The notes under the pieces are model-generated. The model was given only the letters and a program-made list of their open reading frames with translations. It did not search any database and was not told the origin of the DNA. Positions 1-41,011 of a stretch of 64,000 nucleotides of DNA are shown here, piece by piece. The translations under genes were made by a program, and so were the position numbers. The stretch comes from Eimeria necatrix (Eukaryota > Apicomplexa > Conoidasida > Eucoccidiorida > Eimeriidae): assembly GCF_000499385.1 (NCBI RefSeq), contig NW_013651790.1:28604-92603 (forward strand), in the 5' to 3' direction. The stretch's first letter is position 1. Each line of letters opens with the position of its first letter.

Positions 1-320
1 CACTGCTGCTGCTGCTGCTGCTGCTGCTAGGCAGGGCTGCTGCGTGCTGCAGCAAGGCTGCTCCAAAAGGCTTCCTCAGCCCCAACGCCTTCGTCAGCTG
101 AAAGCACGAAGTGTCAAAGAAGAACAGGCTTTGCTGCAGCAGCAGCAGCAGCAGGAGCAGCAGCGGCTGCTGCTGCTGCTGCTGCTGCTAAAAAGCACTA
201 TGGCCAGCAGCAGCAGCAGCAGCAGCTATTGCTGCTGGTGGTGTTGCCAAGAGGCACTAAGGGGTGGCTCTAAAAGGGCAGCGGCTTCGGCCCCTGCCGG
301 CGCAGCAGAGAGCCCCAAAA

Positions 321-355
<35 letters not shown>

Positions 356-837
356 AGCAGCAGCAAAAGCAAATTAAAAATAAACTGAGAAGCAGAAGCT
401 TAAAAAGGGCAAAAGTTCGAAGGAAAAAGCACTTAAAGCGGGCCACTAAAGGCTGGTTAGCTGTAGCTAGCTACAGCTAGCTACAGCTAGCTGCAGCTAG
501 CTAGTGCAGTTAGCTGGAACCATAGGTAGCCGTCTACCTACAGCTTAGCACTGATGCCGCTGCCTCTGCTGCTGCTACTGCTGCTGCTGCTGGCGCTTTT
601 GCTGCTGCTGCTGCTGCTGCTGCAGGGGGCTGCAGGGAGTGCAAGGCTTCCTCAGAGGTGCTGCTGCTCAGCTTGCTGCAGCAAAAGCCCTAAATGTGCA
701 TTTGCATGCAGCCCTTCTTAAGTGCATGAGCAAGTTTGCTGTTGCAGCAGCAGCAGCAGCAGCTGCTGCTGCTGCTGCTGCTGCTGTAGCTGCTGCTGTG
801 GGCAAAAGAGGCCTTGACCCCAGCTGTGGGGCCTTCC
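1..837. repeat. CAG/CTG trinucleotide clusters, left edge
   Basis: Short CTG and CAG runs alternate here (for example 3-28, 136-155, 165-189, 322-353, 598-623 and 744-787), with a short GCTAGCTACA array at about 455-510. Open frames across it are poly-Ala, Cys, Ser, Leu or Gln by-products of the repeat, and none shows a recognisable domain. I see no supported gene. The tracts match the homopolymer-encoding repeats typical of Eimeria R segments. Confidence 0.8.
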
Positions 838-1260
838 GGCAGCTAGCTAGCTGTAGGGCCCCCGATGGCTAGCTAGTCGTATGGCCCTCTAATGGCTAGC
901 TAGCCAGCTACAGGGCCCCCCGATGGCTAGCTAGCTGTAGGGCCATTTAGTGGCTAGCTAGCTATGGGGCCCTCTAATGGCTAGCTAGTTGTGGGGCCAT
1001 TTAATGGCTAGCCACCTATAGGGCAATTAAGTGGCTAGCCAGCTGCCCCGAGTGGCTAGCTAGCTGCCCGCAGTGGCTAGCTAGCTGCCCGCAGTGGCTA
1101 GCTAGCTGTGGCAGAAATGGCTCCACCGCGCGAAGCCCTTTGCTGGCTAGCTAGCCAAGTGGCCCTGCAGTGGCTAGTCACTGACATGGCCCTTAGATGG
1201 CTAGCTAGCCACGGGGCCCTCTAATGGCTAGCTAGCCATAAAGCACTTTCTTAAAATGCT
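838..1260. repeat. Degenerate satellite: TGGCTAGCTAGC alternating with GGGCCC blocks
   Basis: About a dozen tandem copies of a 30-45 bp unit consist of TGGCTAGCTAGC followed by a variable GGGCC(C/A)-type spacer such as TAGGGCCCTCTAA. Copies diverge progressively along the array. It is non-coding as far as I can see. The GCTAGCTA core is shared with the intronic arrays in the ADA2 and TIM50 genes. Confidence 0.8.
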
Positions 1261-1317
1261 ACAAAATTTCCAAATGGCATGCAAAGGCCCCCAAGCATAT
1301 TAAAGCCCAGCAGCTAG

Positions 1318-1500
1318 TAGGAGGGGCCCCCAGGGGCCCCCAGTCCGGGGGCCCCTGGGGGCCCCAGGGTACCCCGGGGCCCTCAAGAGGCCCTGAGAGG
1401 CCCTAAGGGCCCCAAAGGGGCCCCCAGGGGCCCCCCGGGGGCCCCCGGGGGCCCCTGGAGGCCCCCGGGAGCCTAGGGGCCCCTGTGGGCCCCCTCAAGG
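1318..1500. repeat. GGGGCCCC-rich low-complexity block
   Basis: About 180 bp are made almost only of alternating runs of G and C (GGGGCCCCCAGGGGCCCC and similar). They are self-complementary at many offsets, so both strands could fold heavily. The same motif recurs inside exons of ADA2 (about 8097-8165) and TIM50 (about 13485-13560), where it is translated as Gly/Pro-rich protein. Confidence 0.8.
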
Positions 1501-2280
1501 TAAAGCCTCTCCTAAGCTGCTGCGTCTTGTGAGGCAGCAGCTGGGTCTGTTTGCTGCTAGCGGGGGCAGAGCCGGAGCACCCAGCCCTTCGTTATAAACT
1601 CGTTTATAAACTTAAAAAGAAATAAATTGGAATTAAATAATTAATTTGAAGAATTAAAATGAACAACTCCACTGAACTGCGCAAGAAGCCACGCAGACAG
1701 CAGCAGCAGCGGCGCTGCAGCTGCTCCACACGAGCTCTTCTGGAAGGAGGCGAAGAAGACACAAAGTGGACCTGTACATACACTAGGGATCGCATTAAAA
1801 GGAAAATAAAGTTTAATTTTAAATTTATTTCTTTTTTATCCGCCAGTTAACTCAAACGGCTGCTTCGGCGGCTGGCCGAAGCCCCGGCTGCGCACATGCA
1901 GGCGCCGCGAACTTCCGGATTTGATTTTCGAATTTTGTTTGGAAGAAATGAAATGAATTGACTTTAAAAGATATCTCGCTTTGCTGCACTTGGGGTGTAC
2001 GTACACCCGGCGGCGGCCGCGCGACGCGCAGACACCGCAGCTTCCCGTTGCTGCTCACTTTGGACTTAAAGTTCCGTTTTGCTGCAGCGGCGGGGAGGGG
2101 GCGGGCTCGAGGCTTTTTGGAGTTCTTTTTTGCTTTTTGCTGCTGCTGCTGATGATGAGAAGCAGCTAATATCTTTTCTTTTGCATTTGCTGCTTCAAAT
2201 AATGCGCACAGCCAACTAGGATCCGCCTTTGCTGCAGCTGGCTCTCCTTCCTCCCCAAGTCCGTTCTTGCTGCTGCCAAG
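1501..2280. other. Region upstream of ADA2, no supported gene
   Basis: Contains an AT-rich stretch (about 1590-1850), a perfect copy of the GGGGTGTACGTACACC palindrome at 1992-2007, and small CAG/CTG runs. A short arginine/glutamine-rich open frame at 1659-1850 resembles no family I know. The stretch could hold the ADA2 promoter or a 5' untranslated exon, but nothing in the sequence proves this. Confidence 0.4.
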
Positions 2281-2372
2281 ATGCAGCGGGCTGCAGAAGA
2301 CAGGAAGTGAGCTCGCTGCCGCTGCTGCTGCCTCTCCGCCCCGCGAGCTGCTGCTGCAGCCCAGTCCCACCT

Positions 2373-2413
<41 letters not shown>

Positions 2414-2522
2414 TTCGTGGGGCGTGTGTGTGTTGCTGCAGCCCGAAGCGGCTGCGCGTGGCGGACGCGTGCGCGACGTCCGTGGCGCCTGCGGAGAGCT
2501 GCTGCCCCTCGCCGCCGCCCCC

Positions 2523-2584
<62 letters not shown>

Positions 2585-2740
2585 TGTCGGGGCTGGCCGT
2601 GGGGGCCCTCGGCTCGCTGCTCTCGCTGCATGCGCAGTACCACTGCGACGTTTGCGGCAAAGACATCAGCGGGGCTTTTCGCATAAAGTGTGCGGAGTGC
2701 TTCGACTTCGACTTGTGTCTGTCTTGCTTCTGCAGCGGCC

Positions 2741-2786
<46 letters not shown>

Positions 2787-2926
2787 GCAGCAGCAGCACG
2801 AAAACTCCCACGCCTACATCCCCGTCGGCCGCAACACTTTCCCCCTCTTCAGCCTCGACTGGACTGCCGAAGAAGAGCTGCTGCTCATCGAGGGCGTCGG
2901 CAAATACGGCTTCGGAAACTGGGCAG

Positions 2927-2988
<62 letters not shown>

Positions 2989-3764
2989 GGTTCATTTCGC
3001 TGTGTTTGCCTCTTTGCTGCTGGTGCTGCTGGTGTTCGTTTTGCTGCTTTTTCCCCTTTGCTGCTGCTGCTGCTCCTTTTGCTGCTGCGGCGCCTTGTGC
3101 TGCTGCTGTCTGATTTAGCCGGCCAGCTAGCCAGTTCCATAGCTAGCTAGCCTGCTAGCTAAGTAGCTAGCCAGCCAGCTAGTTATTTAGCTGGCTGGCG
3201 GCCAGCTATTTAGCTAGCTAGCTGGCTAGCTGGCTAGCTATTTAGCCAGCTAGCTGGCCAGCCAATTATGCATCCATCTATCTAGCTAGCTGGCTAGCTA
3301 GCCACTTATTTATCTGGCTAGCTGGCTATCTAGCTATCTAGCTAGCTGGCTTGTCATTTAGCTAGCTAGCTAGCTAGCTAGCTAGCTAGCTAGCTAGCTA
3401 GTTACTTAGGTAGCTAGCCAGCGAGCTGGCCAGCGAGCTAGCGAGCTAGCTAGCTAGCTGGCTACTTATTTAGGTAGCTAGCCAGCGAGTTAGCTAGCTA
3501 GCTAGCTAGCTAGCTGGCTAGTTGTTTAGCTAGCTAGCTAGCTAGCTAGCTAGCTGTGTGGGTTTGTGCGGCTGCAGGAGGTGGCGGAGTTGATATCTCA
3601 AGTTTCTCTGGAGCCGAAGACCGCGGAGAGTTGCGAAAAACATTATTTTAATTTTTATTTAAATTCTGCTGCTGCTCCTTTGCCGGATTTGTCGCAGCTA
3701 ATTAAAAACAAAGAAGGCAAGGCCTTGTCTGCTGCAGAGGCGCTCGAGCGCCAGCAGCGGGCCC

Positions 3765-3827
<63 letters not shown>

Positions 3828-4522
3828 AGCTGCCCGAGGCAGAAGCAGGTCCTGCGCCTTTCCCTTCTTTTCCCGCTTATTCGTTCGTTCTAATTTAATT
3901 AAATTAATGATTTAATTGTTTAATTATTTTTTTAATTAATTATTTAATTATTTATTTAATTGTTTATTTAATTATTTATTTATTTATTTATTTGGTTGTT
4001 TTGTTTAAAATGTTTTATTTAATTGCTTCTTATTTTCGTTGCTGCTCGCGTGGCTCTTTGCTGCTCTTGAGCTTTGCTGTTCAATTAATTTATTTATCAA
4101 ATTTATTTATTTATTAACCTTATTTGTTTATTAAATTAATTCATTTATTAAATTAATTCATTTATTAAATTAATTCATTTATTAAATTAATTCATTTATT
4201 AAATTGTTTTATTTATTTGTACTTTGTTTGTTTTGTTTTACATTGGAAGTGCCAGTTGCTTCTAATTCAGTGAACGGGCTTCTCTGCTGCTGCTGCTGCT
4301 GCTGCTGCTGTTCATTTCATGCTGCTGCTGCTGCTGCTGTTCATTTCATGCTGCTGCTGCTGCTGTTGAATTCATGCTGCTGCTGCTGCTGTCCAATTCG
4401 TGCTGCTGCTGCTGCTGTTCAACTCATGCTGCTGCTGCTGCTGCACTGGTCGTTTGCTGTTTCTGCTTCCCGCTTCGCCCGTGCCTTCGCTTGCTGCGGC
4501 CGCTGCTGCGCCCATGGGCCCC

Positions 4523-4562
<40 letters not shown>

Positions 4563-5853
4563 GCAGAGTGTGCTGCTGCTGCTGCCACTCCTGCTGCACT
4601 GCCGCGGCCAGCAGCAAAACCCTCGCACTCCATTGTGGGCTATTGGCCGCTGCGCGGCGACTTCGACGTCGAGTTCGACAACGACGCCGAACTCATCCTC
4701 GCAGACATGGAGTTCAAAGGTCCCGCAACACGCACCAGCTAGCTAGCTAGCTAGCTAGCCACAGCTAGCTAGCTACAGCTAGCCAGCTACAGCTAGCTAG
4801 CTACAGCTAGCTAGCCACAGCTAGCTAGCTACAGCTAGCTAGCCACAGCTAGCTAGCTACAGCTAGCTAGCTACGGCTAGCTAGCTACAGCTAGGTAGCT
4901 AGCTGTAGCTAGCTAGCTACAGCTAGGTATCTAGCTGTAGCTAGCTAGCTTCAGCTGGCTAGCTACGGCTAGGTAGCTAGTTGTAGCTAGCTAGCTACAG
5001 CTGGTTTGCTCCAGCTAGCTGCAGCTAGCTGAAGCTAGCGAGCTGCAGCTAGCTAGCTGCGGCTGGCGAGCTGCTGCTGGCTAGCTGCAGCAGGATAACT
5101 GCAGCCAGTCAGCAGCAGCTAGCTAGCCAGCAGCAGCTAGCCAGCAGCAGCTAGGCAGCAGCAGCTAGCGGAACTTAGCGGGCCAAGACTAGCTAGCCAA
5201 ACCCAACTAGCCACCCCCAGCTAGCCAAGCCAGGTGGCGAGCAGCAGCTAGCCAGCCCGCGCAGCGGCGGAAGGGTTAAAAGTGGAAAAGAAATAATAAA
5301 TAAAAAATAAATTAAAAATAAAAAATGAAAAATAAAAACAAAGAAGAGTTGAACTCGCTGCATGCGCTGGGGTGTACAGACGGCGAGCCTGTGCAGGAGC
5401 GCCAGCTGAAGTTGCAAATTGTTGAAATTTATAATTCAAAATTAGATGAAAGAATTTACAGAAAAAACACCATTATCAGCAGGTAAACCCTAAACCCTAA
5501 ACCCTAAACCCTCGGGAGAGAAACCCTAAACCCTAAACCCTCGGGAGAGCGGCGCCGCTCTGGGGTGCAGGCTTGTAGCCGCCTGAAAGGACTGTGCTGC
5601 AGCTGCTGCTGTTGCTGCTGCTTCTTGCTGCTCCTGCTGCTGTTGTTGCTACTGGTGCCGCTGCTGCTATTGCTCCTTCTGCTCTTGCTGCTGCTGCTAC
5701 TGCTCTCGCTGCTGCTGCTGCTGCTGCTGCTGCACTTAGGGGTCTGCTGGATGTGAAGTCAATTCATCTGCGGGACAAGAGGCGAACAAAAGAGGAAAGA
5801 GACCTTCACAATCTTTTCAAGTATGGCCTGCAGCAGCAGCAGCAGCAGTAGAC

Positions 5854-5888
<35 letters not shown>

Positions 5889-6015
5889 CCCAGCGCCAGT
5901 GCCTGCCAGCCCCGAAGTGCTGCTCCGGGGAGTGCTGCATGCAACTGGAGAGCTTCTCGCGATCCAAAGCTCCTGCCACCCTTACAGCCCCCACTACTGC
6001 TGCTGCTGCTGCTGC

Positions 6016-6057
<42 letters not shown>

Positions 6058-6212
6058 AGGCCGCTGGCTCGGTTCCAGGCCGACGAGCAGCAGGAGCGGC
6101 TGGTGCAGCTGCTGATCGAAGAGCGGCGGCTGCGGCAGCGGCTGGCGCTGCTGCAGGAGTGGCGGAGTTTGGGGCTGAAGACAGCGGGGGACGTGGAGGC
6201 GAGCTGCCACTT

Positions 6213-6260
<48 letters not shown>

Positions 6261-6916
6261 GTTTTGCCCGCTTTTGCTGCAGTTTGCCGCCACTTTTGCT
6301 GCTGCTGCTGCTGCTGCTTGTTTTGCCGTTTTTGCTGCAGTTTGCGGCCATTTTTGCTGCTGCTGCTGCTGCTTGTTTTGCCGCTTTTGCTGCAGTTTGC
6401 CGCCACTTTTGCTGCTGCTGCTGCTGCTTGTTTTACCGCTTTTGCTGCAGTTTGCTGCCACTCTTATTGCAGCTTGTTGCCACTTTTGTTGCAGCTTGCT
6501 TCAATGTTTTCAACATTTGTTCCTTTTTAAATGACATTCTTTTTATTCTTTTATTTGCTCCTTTTGTACTTTTTCAAACTTCAGTCAATTCCCAATCAGC
6601 AGCAGCTTGCTGCTGCTGATTGGGCTGCAGCAAGCTGCAGCAAGCTGCAGCAAGCTGCAGCTTGCTGCAGCTTGCTGCAGCTTCAACTAGCTGCAGCAAG
6701 CTACATCTTGCTGCAGCTAGTTGAAATGCTTATTCTTCTTGTTGCATTTATTAATGGGAAGTTAGAAGCAGCAGCTGCCATCTTCTGAAGTTTTAAATCT
6801 TTTTTAATTTAATTTTTTGCTGCAGGTTTATGAAAAGGAAAAGGCCTGGAGAGAGCAGCTGCGGCTGCGCGCCCCAGACTTGTGTCTTGCTGCTGCTGCT
6901 CCAGGGTCGGTGCACG

Positions 6917-6954
<38 letters not shown>

Positions 6955-8403
6955 GGCGCAGCAGCCAAGACCCAGGCAGCCAGCACGGCCAAGGGACGCG
7001 CCGGGCAAAGGGGCGCCGGTGTTGCTGCTGCTGCTGCAGCAGCAGCAGCAGCAGCAACACCAGGGGGCCCCCAAGGAACTGCTCCCTTAACATCCATAAG
7101 AAACTTCCCCGGGGCAAAACTGCTCAAGCCAGAGGTGGGCTTGGCCTCTATTTGGCGTTTGCTGCAGCGCATGCATGCACGCATGCATGCATGCATGCAC
7201 GCATGCATGCATGCACGCATGCATGCACGCATGCATGCATGCATGCATGCACGCATGCACGCATGCATGCGTTTCCAAGTATTTGTGTTTCTAGCTGCCA
7301 TAATGTATATGTATGTTGGCAGCAGCAGCAGCAGCAGCACCTGCTGCTGCTGCAGCAGGCGCCACGGGCTCCCTCAATGTGCTGCTGCTGCTGCTGCTGC
7401 TGCTGCCCATACGCGCAAATCCACATACTTTTGCAAGTATAAATTAACAAGAATAGTGCGAAATTTGTATTTTGTCCAAAAATATAAATCCTTTTGACAC
7501 TTTTGTGCAAATAAATAAAAAGTGAGGGCATGAATGAGCAGCAAGAAAAGCAGCAGCTGTGCATTTGGGGTGTACGTACAGCTCCGCTGCAGGAGCTGAT
7601 GGGTGGGCTGTTTGAGTTTGTGTTTATTGTTCATTATTTGCGAATTTATTTGTCATTATTTATTTATTTTATTTTATTTATTATTTTTTTGCTTTTAGGA
7701 ACTGGCATTCTGCGAAAGCGCCAATTTGCCTCCAATTTATTTTCTGCTGGCGAAGCGCATGCTGGTGCAGGAGCTGTCTGTACACCGCAAGGTGCTGGAC
7801 AAGCCTTTGGAGCTGCGTGGGTTCTTCACTTTATTTTTATTTTTATTTTCAATTCATTTTTGTTTCTTCTTTGCTGCTTTGCGGGCTCTCCAGCTGGCTA
7901 GCAGCCCGCGGCTTTGCCCGTAGGCTTTGCCTCCGTCTTAGCGCCGTGCTACGGGCAGCGAGGGTTTAGGGTTTAGGGTTTAGGGTTTAGGGTTTAGGGT
8001 TTAGGGTTAGGGTTTGTGTGCCGCAGTAGTGCGCCGCGTGGGCCAGCTCTACGACTTCCAATTAAACATGTGGCAGTTTGCTACTGCTCCCCAGGCCGCG
8101 GGGGGCCCCCTAGATGCTCCCAAGGAGCTGTTGGGGGGCCCCTTGGGGGGCCCCCCAGGGGCCCTTCAGGCTGCTGCTGGGGCCCCCAAGGCCTGCGCTG
8201 AGGGGGAGCAGCAAAAGGCGCCGCTGCAGCAGGAAGGCGAGGCGTTGCTGCTGTCGCAAGTTGTGCAGCCCGGGGTGTATAGACAGCTGGGCGGGGCCGT
8301 GGAGGAGGAGGAGCAGCAAGCTGCTGCTGCGGCTGCTGCTGTTGCTGCTTCAGCGCCAGCTGTTGCTGCGCCAGCTGCAACAGCAGCAATTCAGCAGCAG
8401 TAG
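2281..8403 (+). CDS. ADA2: ADA2 transcriptional coactivator (SAGA/GCN5 complex), repeat-expanded
   Basis: ADA2 partners the GCN5 histone acetyltransferase in the nucleus and stimulates nucleosome acetylation. My exons, joined by matching phase: 2281-2306, 2442-2925, 3578-3848, 4612-4719, 5380-5482, 5740-5820, 6060 to about 6198, 6826 to about 7133, possibly a tiny exon near 7592, 7699-7816, 8027-8403. Seen in order: a poly-Gln run; a ZZ zinc finger ([21 protein letters not shown]); poly-Ser; a SANT domain split by an intron ([13 protein letters not shown] / GNWA, then EVAELISQ); the ADA2 signature [40 protein letters not shown]; and a C-terminal SWIRM domain ([13 protein letters not shown] then RRVGQLYDF). 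The start at 2281 rests on a short exon whose phase fits the next one; a start further upstream is possible. The exons near 6826-7690 are the least certain. Toxoplasma has two ADA2 paralogues, and I cannot say which this corresponds to. Confidence 0.92.
2926..2985 (+). repeat. (CTG)n tract at the 5' end of ADA2 intron 2
   Basis: About 18 CTG units begin five bases after the proposed donor that splits the SANT domain. The flanking exons carry CAG tracts on the same strand (about 2523-2583, 2743-2785 and 3766-3826), giving Gln and Ser runs. Confidence 0.85.
3115..3557. repeat. GCTAGCTA tetranucleotide array in ADA2 intron 2
   Basis: About 440 bp of (GCTA)n with interspersed GCTGGCTA, CCAGCTAG and TTATTTAG variants. 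The longest pure run is about 3360-3404. It ends about 20 bp before the 3' splice site at 3578. Confidence 0.9.
3890..4205. repeat. AT-rich intron segment with 17-bp tandem repeat
   Basis: Intron 3 of ADA2 starts with TTAATTAATTATTTAATT-like sequence. It ends with about four tandem copies of AAATTAATTCATTTATT at about 4130-4205. Confidence 0.85.
4266..4560 (+). repeat. CTG tracts with interspersed TTCATTTCATG, ADA2 intron 3
   Basis: Five short CTG blocks are separated by TTCATTTCATG, TTGAATTCATG, TCCAATTCGTG and TTCAACTCATG, forming a 25-30 bp compound repeat. A pure CTG tract (about 4527-4560) then lies shortly before the 3' splice site near 4611. Confidence 0.8.
4738..5180. repeat. GCTAGCTACA array in ADA2 intron 4
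   Basis: Tandem GCTAGCTAGCTACA and GCTAGCCACA units, about 440 bp, grade into GCAGCAGCTAGCCA repeats at the right end. It resembles the other GCTA arrays but with an added CAGCTA spacer. Confidence 0.9.
5484..5548 (-). repeat. Interstitial telomere-like repeat, ADA2 intron 5
   Basis: Two blocks of AAACCCT on the + strand (four and three units) each end in CGGGAGAG. The array begins immediately at the donor site (GTAAACCC). Here the C-rich strand is sense, the opposite of the other telomere-like arrays in the window. Confidence 0.9.
6206..6500. repeat. About 54-bp minisatellite in ADA2 intron 7
   Basis: Roughly five copies of a unit contain CCACTTTTGCTGCTGCTG, then GCTTGTTTTGCCGC, then TTTTGCTGCAGTTTG. 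The last copies degrade toward 6500. The unit itself contains a CTG run and a potential 3' splice site (TTTTGCTGCAG) in every copy. Confidence 0.85.
7165..7272. repeat. GCATGCAT/GCATGCAC array
   Basis: About 105 bp of alternating GCATGCAT and GCACGCAT, giving many overlapping TGCATGCA palindromes. It lies in an intron in my ADA2 model. TGCATGC is a well-known apicomplexan DNA motif bound by AP2-family factors, but whether this array is bound is unknown. Confidence 0.9.
7961..8013 (+). repeat. Interstitial telomere-like repeat, ADA2 intron before the last exon
   Basis: About seven units of TTTAGGG on the + strand end about 13 bp before the proposed 3' splice site at 8026. Confidence 0.92.
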
Positions 8404-9293
8404 CAGCAGCAGCAGCAGCGGCAGCAAGTGCAGAGCATGCACAGCAGCCCGGCTTCGCAATGTATCTGTGGCTTTTTATGTTTACCTCCAGAGGGAAGCC
8501 TTTTGGGCAATTCCGTCGTTTAAAAATAAATAAAAACAACTAATTGTTTGTTAAATAATCGCATTTAATGCAAATTAAGTCCGTAGGGCGCAGAAGGGGT
8601 GCTGCGGAAACACGCGGGGTGTACAGACACCTCAGATAACTGTGCAGCCTTTGGGCTCCAGCGGCCGGGGGAATTAGCGGGGCGCAGCAGCAGACATTTA
8701 ATTGTATTTATGCCTATTTTAAAATTAATTCAACTTTAATTTATTAATTATATTAATTAGATCGGATTGAACACTAGAGTTGCACTGAGTTACATGCGCG
8801 AAGTTCTCCTGGTGTCTGTACACTGGGCGTCGCGGAACAGCTGGGGGTGAGGCCGTGAAGTCTTGCTGCTGCTTCTGGCTCTGATTTTATTGCAAAAGAT
8901 GATTTTTTTCCTTTTTTTTGATTAATTTGTTAAATTTTAGTTAATTACACTTTTTAAATTTATTTAATTCGGCAAAACGGAGCACTGAGAGCGCAGCAGC
9001 CCCGCCGCAGCCCCGCAGCGGGGCTGCTGGTGCTGGGGCCCCCAGCCCCAAACCAAGTTCTTGATCCTTAAATAGCTATCTGGACTACAACTTAGTCTGA
9101 ATTTAATTCAGTTTAAGAAAATAGTTGCATTGGTTTCGAGTTTAAGGGACTCAGCTGCCGCCGGCGCTGCTCTTGCTGCTCCTGCTGCTGCTGCAGCTGC
9201 AGCAGCGCTGCAAACGACCCCACAAGCAGCAGCATGGCTTAACTCGCATCGAAACCTCAGCAGACACTTCAAGTTGCTTTTGCTGTTGCCAAC
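8404..9293. other. Intergenic region between ADA2 and TIM50
   Basis: AT-rich stretches (about 8520-8580, 8695-8765 and 8880-8970) alternate with GC-rich patches. Variants of the GGGGTGTAC palindrome occur at about 8616-8631 (GGGGTGTACAGACACC) and, in the other orientation, at about 8811-8824. The latter hint at untranslated exons or introns, but I can define no gene here. Confidence 0.5.
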
Positions 9294-9521
9294 ATGCACT
9301 GCAGCGGTGCCCCGGGCGCATGCAGGCGCAGCGGCTGCGTTACTGTTGCTGCTGCTGCTGCTGCTGCCCGGTTGCTGCAGCAGCAGCCGCTGCAGCAGCT
9401 GGCTCAGCTGCAGCTGCAGCAGCAGCGGCATGCAGCACAGATACCGCGTAAGAGGATCAGTGCTGCTGTCGGGGCTCTACAGCTCGGGACTGCATGTAGA
9501 CAAGTTGGTGTTGCCTCACCA

Positions 9522-9559
<38 letters not shown>

Positions 9560-10744
9560 ACGTGGGGGCCCCCGTGGGGTCCTTCAGGCCCATAGCAGCG
9601 GCCTTTTTCGCGGAGCTTCAGCAGCAGCTCGTGGCTTCGCGAGCGCAGCAGCAGTGCCGCTTGCTGTTGCTGCAGCTGGACAAGCAGCAGGTGCAGCAGC
9701 AGCAGCAAGACACACAGGAGCCCTTGCTGCTTCGGGAAACGCAGCAGCAGAGGAGCTGCTGCGCGTGACCACAGGGGCTGAGCGGCAGCAGCTGAAGCAG
9801 TCGTCAGAAGCCGACGCAGCAGCAGCAGCAGCAGCAACAGGAAGTGCAGCAGCAGCAGGAACAGCAGCAGCAGCAGCAGCAGCAGATGCAGACAGCGAGC
9901 AGCAGAATGCGGGGCCCCACAGCAAACCCCCACACAAAGGCTTTTCTTTGGGGGCCCTTCTTTGGGGCGCGGGGGCCCTCAGTGGGGCCCTTTGGGTGGC
10001 AGCTTACATGAAGCAGCACAGCTTGAGTTTTACAGGCAAGTTAGGGTTTAGGGTTTAGGGTTTTGCAGCCAAGCCTTAGGGTTTAGGGTTTAGGGTTTAG
10101 GGTTTAGGGTTTGTGGCTGCAGAGTTCTTGAAGGAAATGTGGCAAGCGGCGGACGCCCAAATGACCAAAACGGCTCAGCAGGTTCAAAACGCCGTAGAAG
10201 ATGTACGCACAGCCAACGTGGCTAGCTAGCTAGGTAGCTAGCTAGCTAGCTAGCTGGCTAGGTAGCTAGCTAGGTAGCTAGCTAGCTAGCCAGCTAGCTA
10301 GCTAGGTAACTGGGCAGCTAGGTAGCTAGCTAGCTGGCTAGTTAGTTAGCTGGTTGGCTAGCTGGCCAGCTGGCCGGCTAGCCAGTTAGCTGGCTGGCCA
10401 GCGAGCTAGCTAGCTGGCCAGGCAGCTGGCTAACTGACTTGCTGGAGGGCTAGATAGATGGCTAGCTCGCTAGCTGGCTAGCTAGCTAGCTAGGCAGGCA
10501 CCGCAGTAGCTGTTTGTGCCACTTTCGGAGCTGCTTAAGAAGTGATTTTGCTTTTGGAAAAGTGGCGGTGAGCTGCTGCAGCAGAGCTGGGGTGTACGTA
10601 CACCGCAGGTGGTGTGCGGAGCCTTTCCCGAAGACCCCGAGCCGCTGCTGCCAGATTTAAAAGAACTTAATTATCCCGAAAACCTCCCGACCCTCGTCTT
10701 GGACTTCGACGGAGTGCTCGCGAAGATCGGGCACGATGTGGGGC

Positions 10745-10781
<37 letters not shown>

Positions 10782-12304
10782 GGGCCGTATAGATCCCGCT
10801 GCGTGTCTGGCTTTCGTCGTTCTGTCGGTCTTGCTGGCGCTAACATGCCATAATAAACAATTAAATAAATAATAAATTAATTAATTAATTAATTAATTAA
10901 TTAATTAATTAATTAATTAATTGCTGAATAAGTTGTTCATCCAGCTTCCCCGGTAGCTGCGGCTAGTGAGCAGTTATGGGCGTTTTGGCCTGTGGGCGTA
11001 TAGGGGGGCTTCTCTGAAGTGCATTTTTCGTGCAGAATACGAAGACTAGGATTAAACAAAACGAGAAAACTAAAATAAAACAAAAACTAAAATAAAAGAG
11101 AACAAAAAACACCAAAGACTGCTTCAGTTGCGTTTGCTGTGCATAGCGGGCTGGGGGCTACAAGCTGAAGAAACGGCCGCACAGCGAACGCCTCGTGGCC
11201 GACTTGTCCCACTTCTTCGAAGTCCTCGTCTGGAGTTCAGACGAACCCCCGGCAGTGCAAATGGCGCTGCAGCAGTGGGGGCTGCCGGTGACGGCTTGTC
11301 TCAGTGCGGACACGATGAGTCGCAGGCCCGGCCGCCGCGTGAAGGCGAGTCAGGGTCTTCAACAGTGCACAAGTTCTCCTTCATTTTCAAAAAAGAAAAG
11401 CCCCCAAAGGCCACTTAGTTCGACTAATTCGCGGATGTTCTCCACAGATTCTCCTGTGGCTTTTTAAAAAAAAAGCCACGCAAAATCCACGCGAAATCAA
11501 TAAGATGGCGCAATTTCTGCACGAGTTCTCCCTTAAAGAAAGAAGAAGGGCCACACAAGTTCCACTGAAATTCAACTTCTTTACTCATATTCAACAGGAG
11601 TTCTCCCTTTAGCTTTTAATAAAAGAAAAGCCACACGAAATCCACTGAAGTTCAACAACGTGTCTCAGTTCAACATGGATTCAACACTAATTCTAGATTT
11701 TCACTCTTTCCAAGTGGAAAGGCGACAGAAAGTCCACTGAAACTCAATAACTGCATTCAAATTCAACATGGATTCAACACAAGTTCCAGCTTTTCACTCT
11801 TTTAAAGCCCGGAAGACGACGCAAGTCTCACTTACTCAACACCATCCAATTTCTTAACTCTTTGACAGCCAGCAATGCGACACAAAGTTAACGATATCTC
11901 CGAATTCAACACTATTCAACTGCAGTATAAGTCCACTTTTTCACTCTTTTAGAGCCAGATATGCGACACAAACTTAATGATACTTCTGAATTCAACACTA
12001 ATTCAAGTTTTTCACTGTTTAAAACCAGAAATTCGACTCCAACTCAACTGAAAATCAACACTATTCAAGTTTTTCACTCATTGAAAGCCAGGAATTCGAC
12101 AAATGCTTGATTGAAATTCAACGCTAACTCAAGCATTTCACTTTTTTGGAGCCAGAACTGCGACACAGACTTAGCGAAAATCCAGAATTCAACACTAATT
12201 CAACTTTGCACAATTCTACTTTTGCACCCTTTTGGAGTCAGAACTGCGGCACCAGCTAAACTGAACTTCAGAATTCAACTCATTCAAAGCGGCGCTGCGG
12301 AGCC

Positions 12305-12342
<38 letters not shown>

Positions 12343-13564
12343 TGCGGCAGCTGAGCTGTTGCGCTGCTGCTGCGCGTTTGCTGCTGCTTGCAGGACCTGA
12401 GCAGGCTGGGCCGGCGCCTGGACCGGCTTGTTTATGTGTCTTGTACTGAAGAAGGCCTTGAGGAGAAGTTTCTTCCGAATTTCATCAAAGTGACGCCTTT
12501 CGAGGGCACGGGTGTGGCTCCCCTCTTGCTTCCTTTCTTTCTTTCGTTTTGTCCTTTTCTCTGCTTCTTCTGTTGCATTCCTTCCGCTTTTTGCTTCCTT
12601 TCTTTGTTTCTTTGCTTCCTTTCTTTGCGTCTTTTCTTGCTTTCATTCTCCTGCTTTCGTGCCTTTTCTTCGTTCCTTTTCTTGCCTTCTTTCTCCTCTC
12701 CGCTTTATTTCTCTCCTCCACAATTTTCTCTTCTTGCTTTCCTTCCCTCCTTCGCTCCATTTCTTTGCTTTCTGCCCTTCTTTTCCTTCTGTGTTTCGCT
12801 TTCTTTGTTTCCCTTTCCTTGCCGTCCGTCCCTCCTTCCCTTCTTTTCCTTCCTCTTTCCTTTTTGCTTATTTTCCTTTCCGTGTCTTCCTTTCTTTCTC
12901 CATTTTCTGTCTTACTTTTCTTTTTTTTCCTGTTTTTGTCTTCTTTTTGTTTTCCAGTCTTTGTTCCATGGTGTTGCTGCAGCCTGTGCGCCTCAACTGT
13001 CTTTCTCTCTATTTCTTTATCTGCCTGTCCTTGCATGTCAGCCTTTTAATCCAATCTTTTTGCCCCTTCGCATCTATTTGTCTTTTGAGCCCTTCAGCTG
13101 CTTCTTTATCAGTTTCCTTGTTTGTTCTTGCCGCCGAGCAGCTGCTGCAGCTGCAGCAGCCAGTGACTGCAGCTGCTGCTGCTGCAGCAGCAGCAGCAAC
13201 AGCTGCTGGTAGCCAGGCCTCCCACTGGCTCCTGCAGCGCCTGTGCGCCTGCGAATGCGCTGCAGCCGCAGAGGCGGAGGAGGACTGCGAGCTGCTGTCG
13301 CTGATTAACTTCTTGAAACACTGTTCGCTGAGTCCCGACGACGTGCGCAGCAGCATCAGCAGGTACGGGGGGGGGGCCCTTCCGGGGGTCGGCAGCAGAT
13401 TCAATGAGGCCAAACGCCTGCAGGAGACCAAGGCCACGCAGCGCAGAAGCATAGGCCGCTTCCTGGGCTTAGCGCAGACCCAGGGGGCCCCCAACTTCCT
13501 CGGCGCGGGGCCCCCGGGAGCGACGCCGGCGGGCCTGGGGGGGCCCCTAGGGGGCCCCAAGTGA
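9294..13564 (+). CDS. TIM50: TIM50, mitochondrial inner-membrane import receptor
   Basis: TIM50 is the intermembrane-space receptor of the TIM23 translocase and hands presequence proteins from TOM to TIM23. Phase-matched exons: 9294-10035, 10123-10202, 10609-10737, 11147-11344, 12394-12511, 13173-13564. Exon 1 is Ala/Gln-rich with scattered Arg and no acidic start, as for a mitochondrial leader, and ends in a transmembrane segment (GALLWGAGALSGALWVAA). The FCP1-like domain follows: LPTLVLDFDGVLAKIG (keeps Asp-x-Asp, which is often degenerate in TIM50), GGYKLKKRPH, HFFEVLVWSS, VKDLSRLGRRL with VVYV-like RLVYVS, then INFLKH and DDVRSSI. The C-terminus is Gly/Pro-rich from GGGGCCCC-type DNA. Two introns appear to use GC donors (CAG|GCAAGT after 10035 and AAG|GCGAGT after 11344). 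The N-terminal start is the first Met of an open frame and is less sure than the domain. Confidence 0.92.
10041..10112 (+). repeat. Two telomere-like arrays forming TIM50 intron 1
   Basis: TTTAGGG blocks at 10041-10062 and 10077-10112 are separated by TTTTGCAGCCAAGCC. They make up nearly the whole 87-bp intron, from just after the GC donor to just before the CTGCAG acceptor. Confidence 0.9.
10218..10500. repeat. GCTAGCTA array in TIM50 intron 2
   Basis: About 280 bp of GCTAGCTAGGTA, GCTGGCTA and GGCCAGC variants, in the same family as the ADA2 intron arrays. Confidence 0.9.
10589..10604. promoter_or_regulatory. GGGGTGTACGTACACC palindrome before a 3' splice site
   Basis: A perfect palindromic core (GGTGTACGTACACC) stands directly before GCAG at 10605-10608, the acceptor of TIM50 exon 3. 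The exon is fixed by the LVLDFDGV motif and by phase. Function is unknown; it could be a splicing element or part of an inserted intron sequence. Confidence 0.55.
10741..10782 (+). repeat. CTG tract near the 5' end of TIM50 intron 3
   Basis: About ten CTG units follow shortly after the proposed donor (GTGGGG at 10738). Confidence 0.8.
10862..10922. repeat. (TTAA)n simple repeat
   Basis: About 60 bp of ATTAATTAATTAATT, self-complementary, in TIM50 intron 3. Confidence 0.95.
11390..12290. repeat. About 75-bp degenerate minisatellite filling TIM50 intron 4
   Basis: Around ten diverged tandem copies share the order AATTCAACACTAATTCAA, then TTTTTCACTCTTTTA, then GAGCCAGAAATGCGACACAA, then ACTxAACTGAAA. 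The first two or three copies, near 11410-11640, also carry AAAGCCACACxAAATCCAC. No frame is conserved through the copies, so it is not a coding repeat. Confidence 0.8.
12300..12340 (+). repeat. CTG tract before TIM50 exon 5
   Basis: About ten CTG units, followed by CTG-rich sequence that ends in the CTGCTTGCAG acceptor at 12393. Confidence 0.8.
12525..13130 (+). repeat. Long pyrimidine-strand tract in TIM50 intron 5
   Basis: About 600 nt made almost wholly of T and C on the sense strand (CTTTCTTTC, TTCCTTTCC and similar). A long antisense open frame here is Lys/Glu/Arg-rich only because of this composition. The tract ends near the TIM50 exon 6 acceptor at 13172. Confidence 0.9.
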
Positions 13565-13934
13565 CCCTGGACCCACTACAACCAATGGGGGGGCCCCAAG
13601 CAGAGCCAAGCAGGCGCCCATGGGGCTGTTGGGGGCCCCTGCTGGAGGCTTAGGGGAGTGCTGTTCTTCTAGTTTGTTTTGGTTGACTTATTTAATCGCT
13701 TCAATATCTTCGCTTCACTGCCGCTGTTGCAGACTCAGCTCCTTTTCAAAATCAATGGGAATAAGTACCTTTTTTGTTTAGGGGCCTCATGGCTGTCCAT
13801 GTTAGTTATAGGCACCCAAGCGTAGGACTCTACTTTGTTTGCTTCGCCTGACGAGCCTTTCAACTTATGTTTGAATTAAGAGGTATGAGCACAGACACTT
13901 TTCTACAGACGCGCCTTGTGCGCCTTTGTCAGGA

Positions 13935-14013
13935 GCTCGTGCAGCAGCACCAGCTGCAGCAGCACCAGCTGCAGCAGCAACAGCTGCAGCAGCACCAGCT
14001 GCAGCAGCAGCAT
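13935..14013. repeat. 15-bp tandem repeat CAGCTGCAGCAGCAC
   Basis: Five near-perfect copies. The reverse frame reads as poly-Ala with Gly and has no other support. Confidence 0.85.
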
Positions 14014-14259
14014 TAGCAGATGCTGCTGCTTCGTTGAGGGAAGACACGCCTTGTACTTGTTGGTACAGCAGCTAGAGCCTTTTTAGCCCGTAGGCCGTTG
14101 GAACTTCGACGCCAAACAAAGTCCAAAAGGACCATCTGCATTCTCCCAATCCATTTTATGTCAGATTATTCGCGTACTCATGCATATGTAATGTACTACA
14201 AATTCATTTATTTCATATTACTCATGAACTCATGTGCATCTGATATACGCGTATACGCA

Positions 14260-14420
14260 CGCATGCATATATAAGGCATACATATACATGTACAGCATTA
14301 TATACATGAACAGCATTATATACATGCATGTGTATATATGTGTGTATGTATATAATACTGTTCATGTATATAATGCTGTTTATGTATATAATGCTGTTCA
14401 TGTACAATATGAATATATAT
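14260..14420. repeat. TATATACATG/ATAATGCTGTTCATG compound microsatellite
   Basis: Alternating copies of ATTATATACATGAACAGC occur on both strands. The left half (about 14292-14330) is roughly the inverse of the right half (about 14350-14403), so the block can fold into a hairpin. Confidence 0.75.
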
Positions 14421-14993
14421 GCATAATGACTTTACAAGCACATACGCACAAACAAGCATATGAGTGTTTTGACGCCTCTGGGTAGAGGTGAAGAAAAAAG
14501 CTGCAGTTGGGCTTCTGCCTAAACCTCAGACAGCCATTTTCCCCCAAGAAAAAAGCCTGAGCCCTAAACTATCATATTTTAAGTAATTTCTGTGTTCTAT
14601 GTGCATGCGTCTGATTATTTTTTTGCGTATCTGTACACACTGATATATGCGTAATATGTGTATATACATATCTAGGTCTGTGCATGCCAAATATATGTAT
14701 ATATATATGTATATATATATATATATATATATTTGCCTATAATGTGTCTGTATCCAGAAAATCTATAATATGAGTTATCATAGTCACTTGCTTGCCGGTG
14801 CATGCACAGATCTGCTGCACTGCTGCGTTGTTGCGAGAATATGTACGGAGAAGCAAGTCAAACTCAGGTGTACATGAGAACAGCTCCGCACTAAAGTTTG
14901 CTGTCTTTGTTTGAAATTAATTAATAATAAAATAAATAAATTCAAAAGAAATTAAAAAGACGCAACTCTGTGTGCGTGTTTCGCTTCTGCCGG

Positions 14994-15306
14994 CTAAGCA
15001 GGTCTTTTGCCTGTTTGTGTCTTCTTGCTATTTGCTGTTGCCGCTGCGCCCCCCGCTGCTCTCTTGAGTCTGGTCCCAGCCTTCAAGTTCGAGGCCTTTG
15101 TTGCTGCTGCTGCTGCTGCTGCTGCAGTGTTGCTGCTGCTTGCCTTTGCCTTCGCACTTATTTGCTTGCACTCTGCGCCTGAGGCCCCACACTGACGCCC
15201 CTCAGACAAAAGGCCCTCCCGCTTCAGCCGCTGCTCCAGCGCAGCAGCTAAGGGCTTAACGAGATACGCAGAAAAGATAGAGAACGCAAGCGAATGGCTG
15301 CTGGGG

Positions 15307-15340
<34 letters not shown>

Positions 15341-15537
15341 GGCTGCTGCTGCTGTGGGCGACAGCAGACGCGGCGGCTGCAGGAAAGGCACTGGGCGCCA
15401 CCCTCTGAGCTGAAATTGCTCTTGCTAGTTTGTTGTGTTTTCGGAGAAGAAAGTCTGTTGTCTTTGCGGAATTAAATCGAACAAATAAGCAGCCGCTGAG
15501 AGCAGCAGACAGGCGCTCGCGGCCCTCCTCAGCAGTC

Positions 15538-15573
<36 letters not shown>

Positions 15574-16109
15574 TCGGCGACGGCTGGCTCTGTTTCAGCA
15601 GCAGCAGCGTCAGAATTCAGCAGCCTGAGGTCGCATGTGCAGTGCAGCCGCCGCAGCACTGCGGGGTGCTGCGCGAGGGCCTGCAGGTTGCTGCGGAGGT
15701 TTGCGTCCAGCTTGCTGGGTGCTGCAGCATCCAGCAGCGGCAGGAAAGATGCAGCAGCAGTTAGCCGTAGGTGGGGCAGCAGCAGCAGCAGCGGGTCCAT
15801 GGGGGTGGCCAGCAGCAAAGAGCCGTCGCCCAGCAGCAGCTGCGGCGGCAGCAGCGCCGAGCAGGTGCCCACGCTTCTGCAGCTTTTGTTTATTTCATAA
15901 ATGACTTCGCCAGAAACAAAGAAGTCCACGGGAACTTCAGGCGCAGACGGGTACGGCAGCGCCAGCGGCTGCAAAGACTGCCAGCTGGCCTTCTTCTGCG
16001 AAGCTGCAGACTCCGGTGGTTTATTTGGTGGGGTTGCTCCTGAGGCTTTGGGGCCACCAGCAAGTACAAGAAGTCGCAACTCGCTCGGGCGAGGAGTTCG
16101 GCCTCCCAT
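14994..16109 (-). CDS. RNase H2 subunit B-like protein
   Basis: RNase H2 removes RNA from RNA:DNA hybrids and single ribonucleotides from DNA; subunit B is a structural partner of the catalytic A subunit and of subunit C. This single-exon frame encodes 371 residues. Residues ~60-105 (VPVDFFVSGEVIYEINKSC, then LLGDGSLLLATPMDP and LLLLLPHL) match the family pattern, in which a strand reading D-G-x-L-x-x-ATP-x-DPL-x-LLP is the hallmark. A middle segment reading FVRFNSAKTTDFLLRKHNK and a later helix FSIFSAYLVKPLAAALEQRL fit the helical C-terminal half. Ala runs encoded by GCA/GCT repeats separate these blocks. The tail is Lys/Arg-rich (KKTQTGKRPA) and could be nuclear-localising; I see no clear PIP box. 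Last gene of the repeat-rich half. A start further upstream in another exon is possible. Confidence 0.72.
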
Positions 16110-19106: not shown

Positions 19107-19939
19107 ATGAAGGGCCTGGCGGGGAAGAAAGAAGGGGGCTCGAAGAAGCAGGCCTTGGCCACAGGGCCAGAGGGGCTCCGGGCCCCGGCAAGCCTGCTGG
19201 AGCTGCAGCTGCAGGCTCTGGAGCAGGGCGTGCGCGTGGCTGTCCCGGCTGCGGGCGTAGGCCTGTCCTCGTCTGTGCTTCGAGACTTCGTGGCATTTTT
19301 GGAGAACTTTCTCTTGAATGACTATCAGCCTGTTCAGATCCACCTCACTGAGCCTTCTAAGAAGGAAGGAAACTTCGCCGTCTCGCAAACAGCGCAAGCC
19401 TTATTCAGCAGAGTTCCTGGCAATGCAAAAGCAACGCCACCCATATGGACCGCCCCCAAGCCTTCACAGGTGCAGCTCGTTGGCAGCTGCGGCGCAGAGT
19501 TGGGGCCTCCTGCTTTTGCCCGCAACTTAGACTTGGCTTTTGAACTGCCTGCAGACGCCTTAGACAAGCGGGACTACCTGAATTACCGGTGCGTGGGGTG
19601 TCTGGACACCTGGGCTCCCGCTGCTTTCTGCTCCAAACTTGAATGATCAAATGCATGCATTTAGGGGATCCTTTGCGCCATTGCAAGGAACTTTTGGCTC
19701 TTTGCGTTCTGCTGCATTCTCAGTTACCTTGCGAAACGCGCCGGGCTGGTGGACGCTGTGCATAGCCAGCTGCAGGCAGCGCTGGCTTCCCCAGAGCTCC
19801 CGAAGAAGTGGAAATGGGCCAGTGTGTGCAAAGGCCGCCTGAAGGTGGAAGCTTCGGTGCTGCCTTGGCGCTTTGACAACACGAAGACCTTCATAAGCCT
19901 CAGGTTCCTTCCCGTGGCAGCAGAGGCGGCCAAGCTCCC

Positions 19940-35702: not shown

Positions 35703-36992
35703 ATGCTGACAGCAAAATTATGCAAAGCCTGTGAAGATGGAGACTTGAAAGAAGTACAGGAGCTTTTGGAATCCGGAGCTACCCCTAACTTTGCATCCAA
35801 CGGGAAGTGTTACCGCTACCCCTTGCACTACGCTACCACTAGCGGGCACGTCGATATAGTGAAGCTGCTTCTTGAAGTGGGTCTCCAGCTGCCCTCGTCA
35901 CCCATGTGAAAGCAAATTTTCTCCCTTACGCTGTGCACGTTGACGGGATTAATTTGCGATGTGTTTTTCCCTTATTTTTCCTCCTGCTTTCCTGGATGCA
36001 GAATGAGGCGGCAGTGGATCCTTTGGAATCCTCAAATGCCTGGACCCCTTTGATGCTAGCCGCGTGGGTCATTGCACAATAGCGTGTAGCATTGAAACTC
36101 CTGCACCTCCAGAGGGTTCTGCTTAGGCGGTTTTCCATGATAACCGTAATTGGTGTGTGGTTCAGATTGAAGTCGAAAGTTTCTCAAAAGTACGTGGAGG
36201 TGATGATGCTCTTAATAGAAAATGGTGCGGACACTGAGGTGGCAGATGCGGTACGGCAACCGTGTCGCTTTTCGTTATTGTTGAAAGAACGTATTTCCCT
36301 TGTGTTTTTGCAGTGCTGCTTGCCAATAGTCTTCGATCGAATAAGTTTTCCACAGAGATATATTTGTTGATGAAGGCCACGCGAGGGATCGCGAAGTGCC
36401 ATTGTATGCATTTGTGGCCGTATATGTGCTCCTTGCAGAAAGGAAACACAATAGTTCACATACTGGCATCATTGGGTCAAACCGCGTTGCTGAAGCAAGT
36501 ACTCCATAAGGTCCCCTCGCTCGACATTCTTGGCCCAGGTTTCGGTTACCTAACCCCACTGCACTACGCCGCTGAGGCTGGGCACTTCTCCACAGTTGAA
36601 TTTCTTCTGCAGTTAGGTGCTGATCCTCGAGGTGTGGATGCAAGTGGGTGGACACCGATGCATTGGGCCTGTAGACAAGGGGACAAACGAATCATCGGAC
36701 TCCTCTTGAGCTCCGGAGGCAGCATCGAAGATCGTGATTTTGTAAGCGTCAACTTTCCCGTACTGCGGTTGTGCATTGTTGCCTTTGTGCGAAAGCACCT
36801 AGCTTCCGCAAACGTTGAAACATGCTAGCTAACATTGTGAAGCTTCCCGAGTTCACAATTTTCTACCGAATTCGCTGTTCTATGATGATGCAGAGATCTC
36901 TAACACCGCTAGATGTCGCATGCCTTTTCGGTCATACTGCCTTGGCAAAGCTGCTGGAAGGTGAGGTGAGCTCAGGCTTGCTACATGCATAG
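35703..36992 (+). CDS. Ankyrin-repeat protein
   Basis: Five exons joined in phase 0: 35703-35876, 36002 to about 36067, 36173-36250, 36439-36741, 36894-36992. The product is about 240 residues, nearly all ankyrin repeats: LCKACEDGDLKEVQELLESGA / YPLHYATTSGHVDIVKLLLE; AWTPLMLAAW / YVEVMMLLIENGADTEV; GNTIVHILASLG / TPLHYAAEAGHFSTVEFLL; GWTPMHWACRQGDKRIIGLLL; LTPLDVACLFGHTALAKLLE. Ankyrin repeats bind proteins; the ligand is unknown. The start is the Met directly before the first repeat, though an in-frame Met at 35565 would add 46 residues. The last exon carries a good donor (GAG|GTGAGC) just before the stop, so the transcript may instead continue into the membrane-protein frame that begins at 36985 and overlaps the stop by 8 nt. 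Confidence 0.85.
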
Positions 36993-39900: not shown

Positions 39901-41011
39901 ACGCAGGCAGCTGGTGGAGATTGTTCGTGCAGGTAAATGCTAATCGCAGTACACCCCCAATGCGTGGTGAGACACAGTCCGCGTGTGTTTTCAGACATTT
40001 TTCAGCTTTTGGTGTCGCGAATTCGAAAAGCTCCTTCTGTATCAAGATCAGCATTTTGGGGATAACTCTTTGTGGGTGACAAATGCTCTGGAGAAGGAGA
40101 GTATCAGTGCCTTTTCACAGGGAAATGTTTCTTTCCGAGCAGATGAAGTGCCCTGCACCACTCCCCCTGCGTCGTACATACGGGAGGAAGCGGATGTCTT
40201 CTCGAAGCATTTCAATGACAGAAGCAAGGATGTGCTGTGGTTGGTCTGTCAACCCACGTGTGAAAGACAAGCAGGCAGGTCCTTCAACTCACCCCGGGTA
40301 AGAAACACTGAGAGCAATCGTGATGAGGACACTGCAAACAAGCAACTGGACATATGCCCCTCAACTGCGCCACCAGCGCCGCCAATGACGTGCGCCATCG
40401 CAGTTAGCTTGGGGAAACTCAAAACTCCCAAGCGCTTTGCACCGAATGAGAAGCGGCATTTCTTCAGGAGAAATTCCGTCAGACGATTAGTGCATCATGC
40501 CCCAGCACGTGCCCCCTGCAAAACGGTGTCTGACACTGTTTCTATATCTGAGGGGACTGGGAGACATGCAGGAGAAGAGCGAGACAGGGTAACAGGAAAT
40601 TTTGGAAATCAATTCGTACTGGTAGCGGAGGCTTGCCGGTTTATCTTTGCCCTGTCATTAACTCTAGATCTCCTGCTAGGCCTCTTGCCATTTCTCGCTG
40701 CCATTGTTCTTGCTTACCTGCTGCCAAATAAGGGTTCCATTGATAATCAATCCGCAGCTCTTAGTGTTTCGTTCATGGGTGCTTGCGAGCACCGTGAATG
40801 GACTGCTGCTGCACTTCCTGTCAGTTATTTGCTGTCTCTGCAGACGTTCGCTGCCACAGTGTGTACCCTGAGAGTGCTCGCTCTTTGGTGCCTCGCACTG
40901 GCTTTGCTGGTGTCGTCTGTGCATGCGCTTATCTTGTTTAGCCAGGCAGCTCGGATTTTCTTCCCACTGAACGGAAGGAAGCATGCCACGCAACTTATGG
41001 TCGAGGCATGA
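36985..41011 (+). CDS. Large multi-pass membrane protein, unknown function
   Basis: Two exons, 36985-39882 and 39995-41011, joined at a strong GTGAGT donor in phase 0, give up to about 1,300 residues. I recognise no family. N-terminal hydrophobic stretches (residues ~85-120, 130-155 and 220-275, for example LVLLIQIVMVAVVASLSVVG) suggest four or five membrane spans. A ~700-residue hydrophilic, Ser/Arg-rich loop follows, and then a second hydrophobic cluster near the C-terminus (LSLTLDLLLGLLPFLAAIVL, SYLLSLQTFAATVCTLRVLA and LALALLVSSVHALILF). The Met at 36985 overlaps the preceding ankyrin gene, so the true start is either one of the next Mets (37018 or later) or the frame is spliced onto the ankyrin exons. 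The long uninterrupted exon is unlike the intron-dense neighbours. Confidence 0.75.

Follow-up and report, generated by a model that had tools for sequence, protein, structure and literature searches.

A recurrent palindrome of Eimeria necatrix R segments is a candidate nucleosome-barrier site of a protein dimer rather than a splice signal

Why should one palindrome appear again and again around the introns of a single Eimeria necatrix locus? In the stretch of DNA analysed here (64,000 nucleotides, part of contig C271; hereafter, the window), the initial annotation had placed a 16-bp palindrome at or just before 3' splice sites, and had offered three guesses at its nature: a splicing enhancer, a protein-binding site or the scar of an intron-generating element. 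The evidence described below favours the protein-binding site, speaks against the other two guesses, and corrects the tempting reading of the palindrome as a splice signal.

All eight stretches that had been quoted from the window read as they were given. We modelled the site as a symmetrised 20-bp matrix, with sites called at a score of at least 9, and found eight such sites in the window (Table 1). Relative to the 14-mer GGTGTACGTACACC, the copy at 7567 carries one mismatch, that at 8616 two, and those at 8811 and 19595 three each. The donor of the TIM50 intron, GTACGC, also lies in a weakly motif-like stretch (10200-10213; 3 mismatches, score 2.1), probably by chance. The gene names NOL6, TIM50 and ADA2 are those of the initial annotation, and the domains listed for homologues fit the first two, with Nrap (PF03813) for NOL6 and PF03031 for TIM50.

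Table 1. Palindrome copies and supported introns in the window, with matrix scores.
Feature	Positions	Strand	Core	Score	Context or support
Dyad site, perfect 16-mer at 1992-2007	1991..2010		1995	30.8	upstream of ADA2-like coding ORF
Half-site GGGGTGTACAGA	5369..5380	+		8.4	below cut 9; putative ADA2 acceptor inside
Dyad site, single arm base altered	7566..7585		7570	23.2	
Degenerate dyad site	7770..7789		7774	16.4	
Degenerate dyad site	8271..8290		8275	15.4	
Dyad site, ACAG variant in centre	8615..8634		8619	26.3	
Degenerate dyad site, CTGT variant in centre	8808..8827		8812	14.2	
Dyad site, perfect 16-mer at 10589-10604	10588..10607		10592	31.9	acceptor end of TIM50 intron
Dyad site, CTGG variant in centre	19594..19613		19598	22.1	adjoins NOL6 donor
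TIM50 intron, 406 nt	10203..10608	+			tblastn of homologous proteins P0005-P0009, reading frame across junction
NOL6 intron, 135 nt	19589..19723	+			in-frame junction; Eimeria magna protein P0004 reads NYRYLAKRA across

The suspicion that the palindrome recurs beyond chance was amply confirmed in the genome as a whole. We counted 2933 places with its 12-base core, GTGTACGTACAC, in the E. necatrix genome of 44 Mb, where 2.6 are expected by chance (44.0 Mb / 4^12) and a reversed control gives 6; the 16-mer was counted 638 times on the plus and 704 times on the minus strand, with 0 for its reversed control. Such an excess of a long, specific motif over chance is what a site of a nucleosome barrier or general regulatory factor should show. 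Statistics draw on contigs C1 and C4 in full, the window, and 40 stretches surrounding listed sites (322,484 bases with 87 exact cores; stretches L001-L008 were left out), a sample biased towards sites, in that the 40 stretches were picked for containing them and both contigs were taken from the head of the match list and so each contain some. In this sample 183 positions score at least 10, compared with 2 in Markov sequence. Of the 187 non-overlapping sites scoring at least 9, 69 lie in C1, C4 and the window, which together hold 24 exact cores. Scaling 2933 by 187/87 or 69/24, we extrapolate to roughly 6,000-8,000 sites in the genome.

Most of the sites in C1, C4 and the window lie in repeat-rich DNA, with 59/69 falling in CAG-rich bins (26 of 64 four-kilobase bins), which correspond to the R segments described for Eimeria tenella in the consulted passages of PMC3505466 and PMC9131526. 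The palindrome is depleted inside coding-like sequence: such sequence flanks a site on both sides in 1/342 cases, compared with 40/1716 random places, at a strict threshold, and in 14/342 compared with 119/1722 at a looser one.

The architecture of the site indicates at what level it is read. The full site is a dyad of 20-22 bp, YTSVG-GTGTAC|GTACAC-CBSAR, and its geometry is rigid: GGTGT and ACACC are separated by a spacer of 4 in 102 cases (GGTGT-N4-ACACC), never by 0-3 or 5-7, and by 8 in two. Outwards from the centre, the arms prefer G at -1, G, A or C at -2, G or C at -3, and T (116/174) or C at -4. Coupling between the two arms would be expected of a hairpin or of a palindrome copied recently, but not of a homodimer that reads each half on its own. 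Left and right arms agreed in 72, 32, 48 and 47 cases at positions -1 to -4, against 73.1, 31.4, 50.3 and 47.1 under independence, with slight agreement at -5 (34 compared with 28.4 expected). The compensating changes that would betray an RNA hairpin are absent at -1 to -4, the arms pairing no better than chance, and we reject that candidate; an Rfam search of the window at gathering scores returned no match. The flanks, compared from contig to contig, have nothing in common beyond additional motif copies and simple repeats. A filter identified 67 of 102 similar pairs as CAG or telomere-like; the remaining 35 consisted of 29 motif copies, 5 telomere-like and 1 CAG-like pair; similar pairs of intervals between sites were telomere-like as well. 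Independent half-sites, fixed spacing and unrelated flanks therefore point to a DNA-level site of a protein dimer, and not to an RNA hairpin, a transposon or an intron scar.

Distances between neighbouring sites are strikingly discontinuous: they cluster at 15-80 bp, near 185 bp and near 340 bp, with few values in between (54 gaps at 15-80 bp, 1 at 81-149, 24 at 150-224, 2 at 225-297 and 17 at 298-379). In C1, C4 and the window no gap falls at 81-153 or 205-302 bp, the other loci being less sharp. The best concentration of gaps in two windows was reached by a smooth null in 0/400 simulations, although such sharper figures use windows seen in the data and sharpness declines in the sample's second half; tests of periodicity were moderate (p 0.0015-0.004), and the peaks at about 185 and 340 bp do not stand in an exact 1:2 ratio.

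Base composition carries a matching order. Around 133 cluster representatives, with neighbouring sites masked, GC content is 0.62 at 20 bp, falls to 0.41-0.44 at 60-100, rises to 0.55 at 200 and continues through 0.44 at 300, 0.53 at 360 and 0.46 at 480 bp, an oscillation that is phased with the site and repeats every ~185 bp. The corresponding GC contrast was 0.091 at sites and -0.007 (s.d. 0.014) at random places, with 0/300 random sets reaching the value at sites; it was present in each half of the sample, and the pattern of rises and falls recurred at 48 isolated sites. Because the wave survives where no donor is near (94 sites) and is deep where no neighbour is coding-like (28 sites), an origin in the alternation of exons and introns is unsupported; the intervals between sites are also no more coding than random ones. 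Periodic order at the nucleosome scale is thus visible by sequence proxy, in gaps and GC wave.

Control sequences did not behave in this way: the wave was absent or weak, and gaps showed no such quantisation, around TGCATGCA (30 places) and GCTAGCTAGC (37), both small controls, and around CAGCTG (230). The first of these, known from apicomplexans and abundant in Eimeria R segments according to passages of PMC3505466 and PMC6631176, resembles our site in being a palindrome plentiful in R segments and differs in lacking a clear GC wave or quantised gaps, as judged at its 30 places, and any donor asymmetry.

The sample shows a GC wave of 170-190 bp also after the sites have been masked. GC autocovariance then has a period of about 170 bp in the P segments, with z 11.9, and of 180 bp in the R segments, with z 7.0, and without masking z is 12.9 (P) and 10.5 (R), all measured against 60 local block shuffles in stretches assigned to R or P by eye from repeat density. 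The P segments C1:37000-97761, C4:31500-96484 and window 20000-64000 carry the ~170 bp wave despite few palindromes. A sequence period near nucleosome length has an apicomplexan precedent in Babesia bovis, where the consulted passages of PMC4148916 describe periodic ACACA, TGTGT and TATAT of ~150 bp around transcription starts; there short words recur at transcription starts, whereas in E. necatrix the wave is one of GC content, runs through both segment types and is phased with a single dyad site.

Nucleosomes are the spools on which DNA is wound, and the general regulatory factors of yeast act as barriers to them. We consider it reasonably probable that the palindrome is, in a comparable manner, the DNA-level site of a homodimeric, sequence-specific protein that serves as a nucleosome barrier. 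The bound dimer would be a phasing anchor that holds its binding stretch clear and lines up nucleosomes to either side; the ~185-bp wave in GC content would be the long-term imprint of the aligned array. Distances between neighbouring sites fit zero, one or two intervening nucleosomes: the two longer gap classes begin at ~154 and ~299 bp, near one and two 147-bp nucleosome cores, as if bound sites left room for whole nucleosomes. Barrier factors follow this logic (consulted passages of PMC8163753), which would place the site in linker DNA.

Eimeria genomes alternate between repeat-rich R and repeat-poor P segments. We tentatively entertain the broader possibility that a dedicated phasing protein, binding the palindrome at thousands of sites, organises the R segments, that the resulting ladder has been steady enough in evolution to be written into base composition, and that the 5' ends of introns tend towards phased positions. 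Should this be true, a class of R-segment sites tied to nucleosome spacing would offer a concrete candidate for a chromatin factor, and the GC wave would allow the nucleosome repeat length to be read from sequence.

Like the barrier sites of the general regulatory factors Reb1, Abf1 and Rap1, of CTCF and of Phaser (consulted passages of PMC8163753), the Eimeria palindrome is abundant and sequence-specific, and nucleosome arrays would be aligned symmetrically at it. In contrast to them, the Eimeria site is a strict 20-bp dyad found mostly in R segments and in part where introns begin, and has the GC wave in the sequence itself. In the consulted portions of the literature on Eimeria together with GTGTAC, splicing, R segments, palindromes, AP2 or motifs, and nucleosomes, we found no description of the site, and none of the consulted literature containing strings of or around the core was an Eimeria paper by title.

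Could the site instead mark the centre of a nucleosome? On this account cores are GC-rich, linkers near +/-90 bp are AT-rich, and the palindrome helps to place the dyad, with no need for a protein. Plasmodium nucleosomes favour GC-rich DNA and AT-repeat linkers (consulted passages of PMC5198986), so that the GC phase alone also allows isolated sites to lie at nucleosome centres, and poly(dA:dT) peaks 60-75 bp from sites agree with this. We nevertheless regard it as unlikely, since the 54 neighbouring pairs at 15-80 bp are too close together to be two centres. The weak patterns generally known to position nucleosomes, moreover, look unlike a fixed 20-bp dyad whose core bases are near-absolute.

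A somewhat smaller chance attaches to an ordinary transcription-factor site, for example an AP2-G-like one, in promoters and first introns, with nucleosome order as a by-product. The AP2-G site is given as GnGTAC or GTGTACAC in passages of PMC4537280, PMC12190761 and PMC6631176, and each full Eimeria half-site contains GTGTAC, the two halves abutting tail to tail and bearing extra arm bases that set them apart from the AP2-G site. Among strict sites, 87/117 have GnGTAC in both halves, and the E. necatrix genome yields 29 AP2 matches, 22 of them over the cut-off. Because each full half-site carries GnGTAC, an ApiAP2 domain preferring GTGTAC is also the leading candidate for the barrier factor proposed above. 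Both the candidate and the transcription-factor account are weakened by the 30/117 strict sites in which one half lacks GTGTAC, and the estimated number of sites would be high for a stage regulator.

Under the barrier reading, copies near splice sites would reflect linker positions at exon edges and not splicing signals. The window itself provides one copy at each end of an intron. In TIM50 the acceptor CAG belongs to the right arm of the palindrome, and the acceptor proposed beside the copy at 10589 is borne out by homologous proteins, four of five spanning the junction with an equal residue number and the fifth covering the exon-3 side only. The NOL6 copy is intronic, as had been claimed, and it begins ~6 nt inside the 5' end of its intron rather than near the 3' splice site; this junction rests on one homologous protein, from Eimeria magna.

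Genome-wide, the asymmetry lies on the donor side. GTGAG occurs 2-32 nt from the core 171 times upstream and 67 times downstream (about 10 of the first 100 upstream hits are neighbouring motif copies, and some downstream hits may be too), compared with 68 and 57 at 70-100 nt and with 329 and 320 around the control palindrome TGCATGCA. With a donor matrix taken from a generic consensus rather than trained on Eimeria, candidates scoring at least 6 numbered 18 upstream and 7 downstream, and 7 and 1 when preceded by coding-like sequence. Thus a minority of copies, that of NOL6 among them, sits within an intron immediately after its 5' end.

Acceptors follow no such rule. TTTCAG at 5-35 nt is only weakly in excess downstream (59, compared with 45 upstream, 9 of which are motif copies), and exon-like sequence on the downstream side only is not enriched in either of two counts (25/216 sites compared with 331/1948 random places, and 42/342 compared with 249/1722). 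At score 4 the acceptor matrix has an excess at +60 to +200 (43, compared with 21 upstream), which we take as no more than supportive; this matrix is blind within ~12 nt of a masked site, and the depletion right after the motif, being partly an artefact, was not used. A position at, or immediately ahead of, 3' splice sites therefore holds for the TIM50 copy and fails as a general rule.

A splicing element read in RNA, whether at acceptors or near donors, is accordingly very improbable. The donor asymmetry, which fades with distance and is absent around TGCATGCA, would suit it, as would the TIM50 and NOL6 copies, but the excess concerns a minority of sites (104/2933 cores with GTGAG), and exon-like sequence is not in excess just downstream. 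The site is also palindromic with independent arms, and at 26 donor-linked sites the stronger half has no preferred orientation (p 0.29), a test made on the local sample alone (orientation searches returned 158 and 150). The enhancer guess fares poorly on the same grounds.

Least credible of all is an origin in a mobile element, intron-generating or other, of which the site would be the scar or a terminal repeat. High copy number, tandem arrays (C1) and concentration in repeat-rich segments might suggest it, but against it stand the independent arms, unexpected of a copied unit, and flanks that share only motif copies, CAG or telomere-like repeats.

Locally the palindrome can be very dense. 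A tandem array at C1:33985-34127 comprises six copies at 26-bp spacing, and at C21:68389-68829 ten GGGG-form copies occur among the matches listed. Within the window, positions 1-16000 are dense in CAG, TAGC/GCTA and AATT tandem tracts and in telomere-like AAACCCT runs, and beyond them only two arrays were reported (19941 and 30560), as at the edge of an R segment. At 36985-39933, where an E. tenella relative was absent among the best 7993 candidates scored, possibly as an effect of the search, proteins of E. necatrix (100%), E. praecox (36%) and Cyclospora (30%) were matched. A 983-residue ORF of the window is 100% identical to an Eimeria necatrix protein over 96% of the query.
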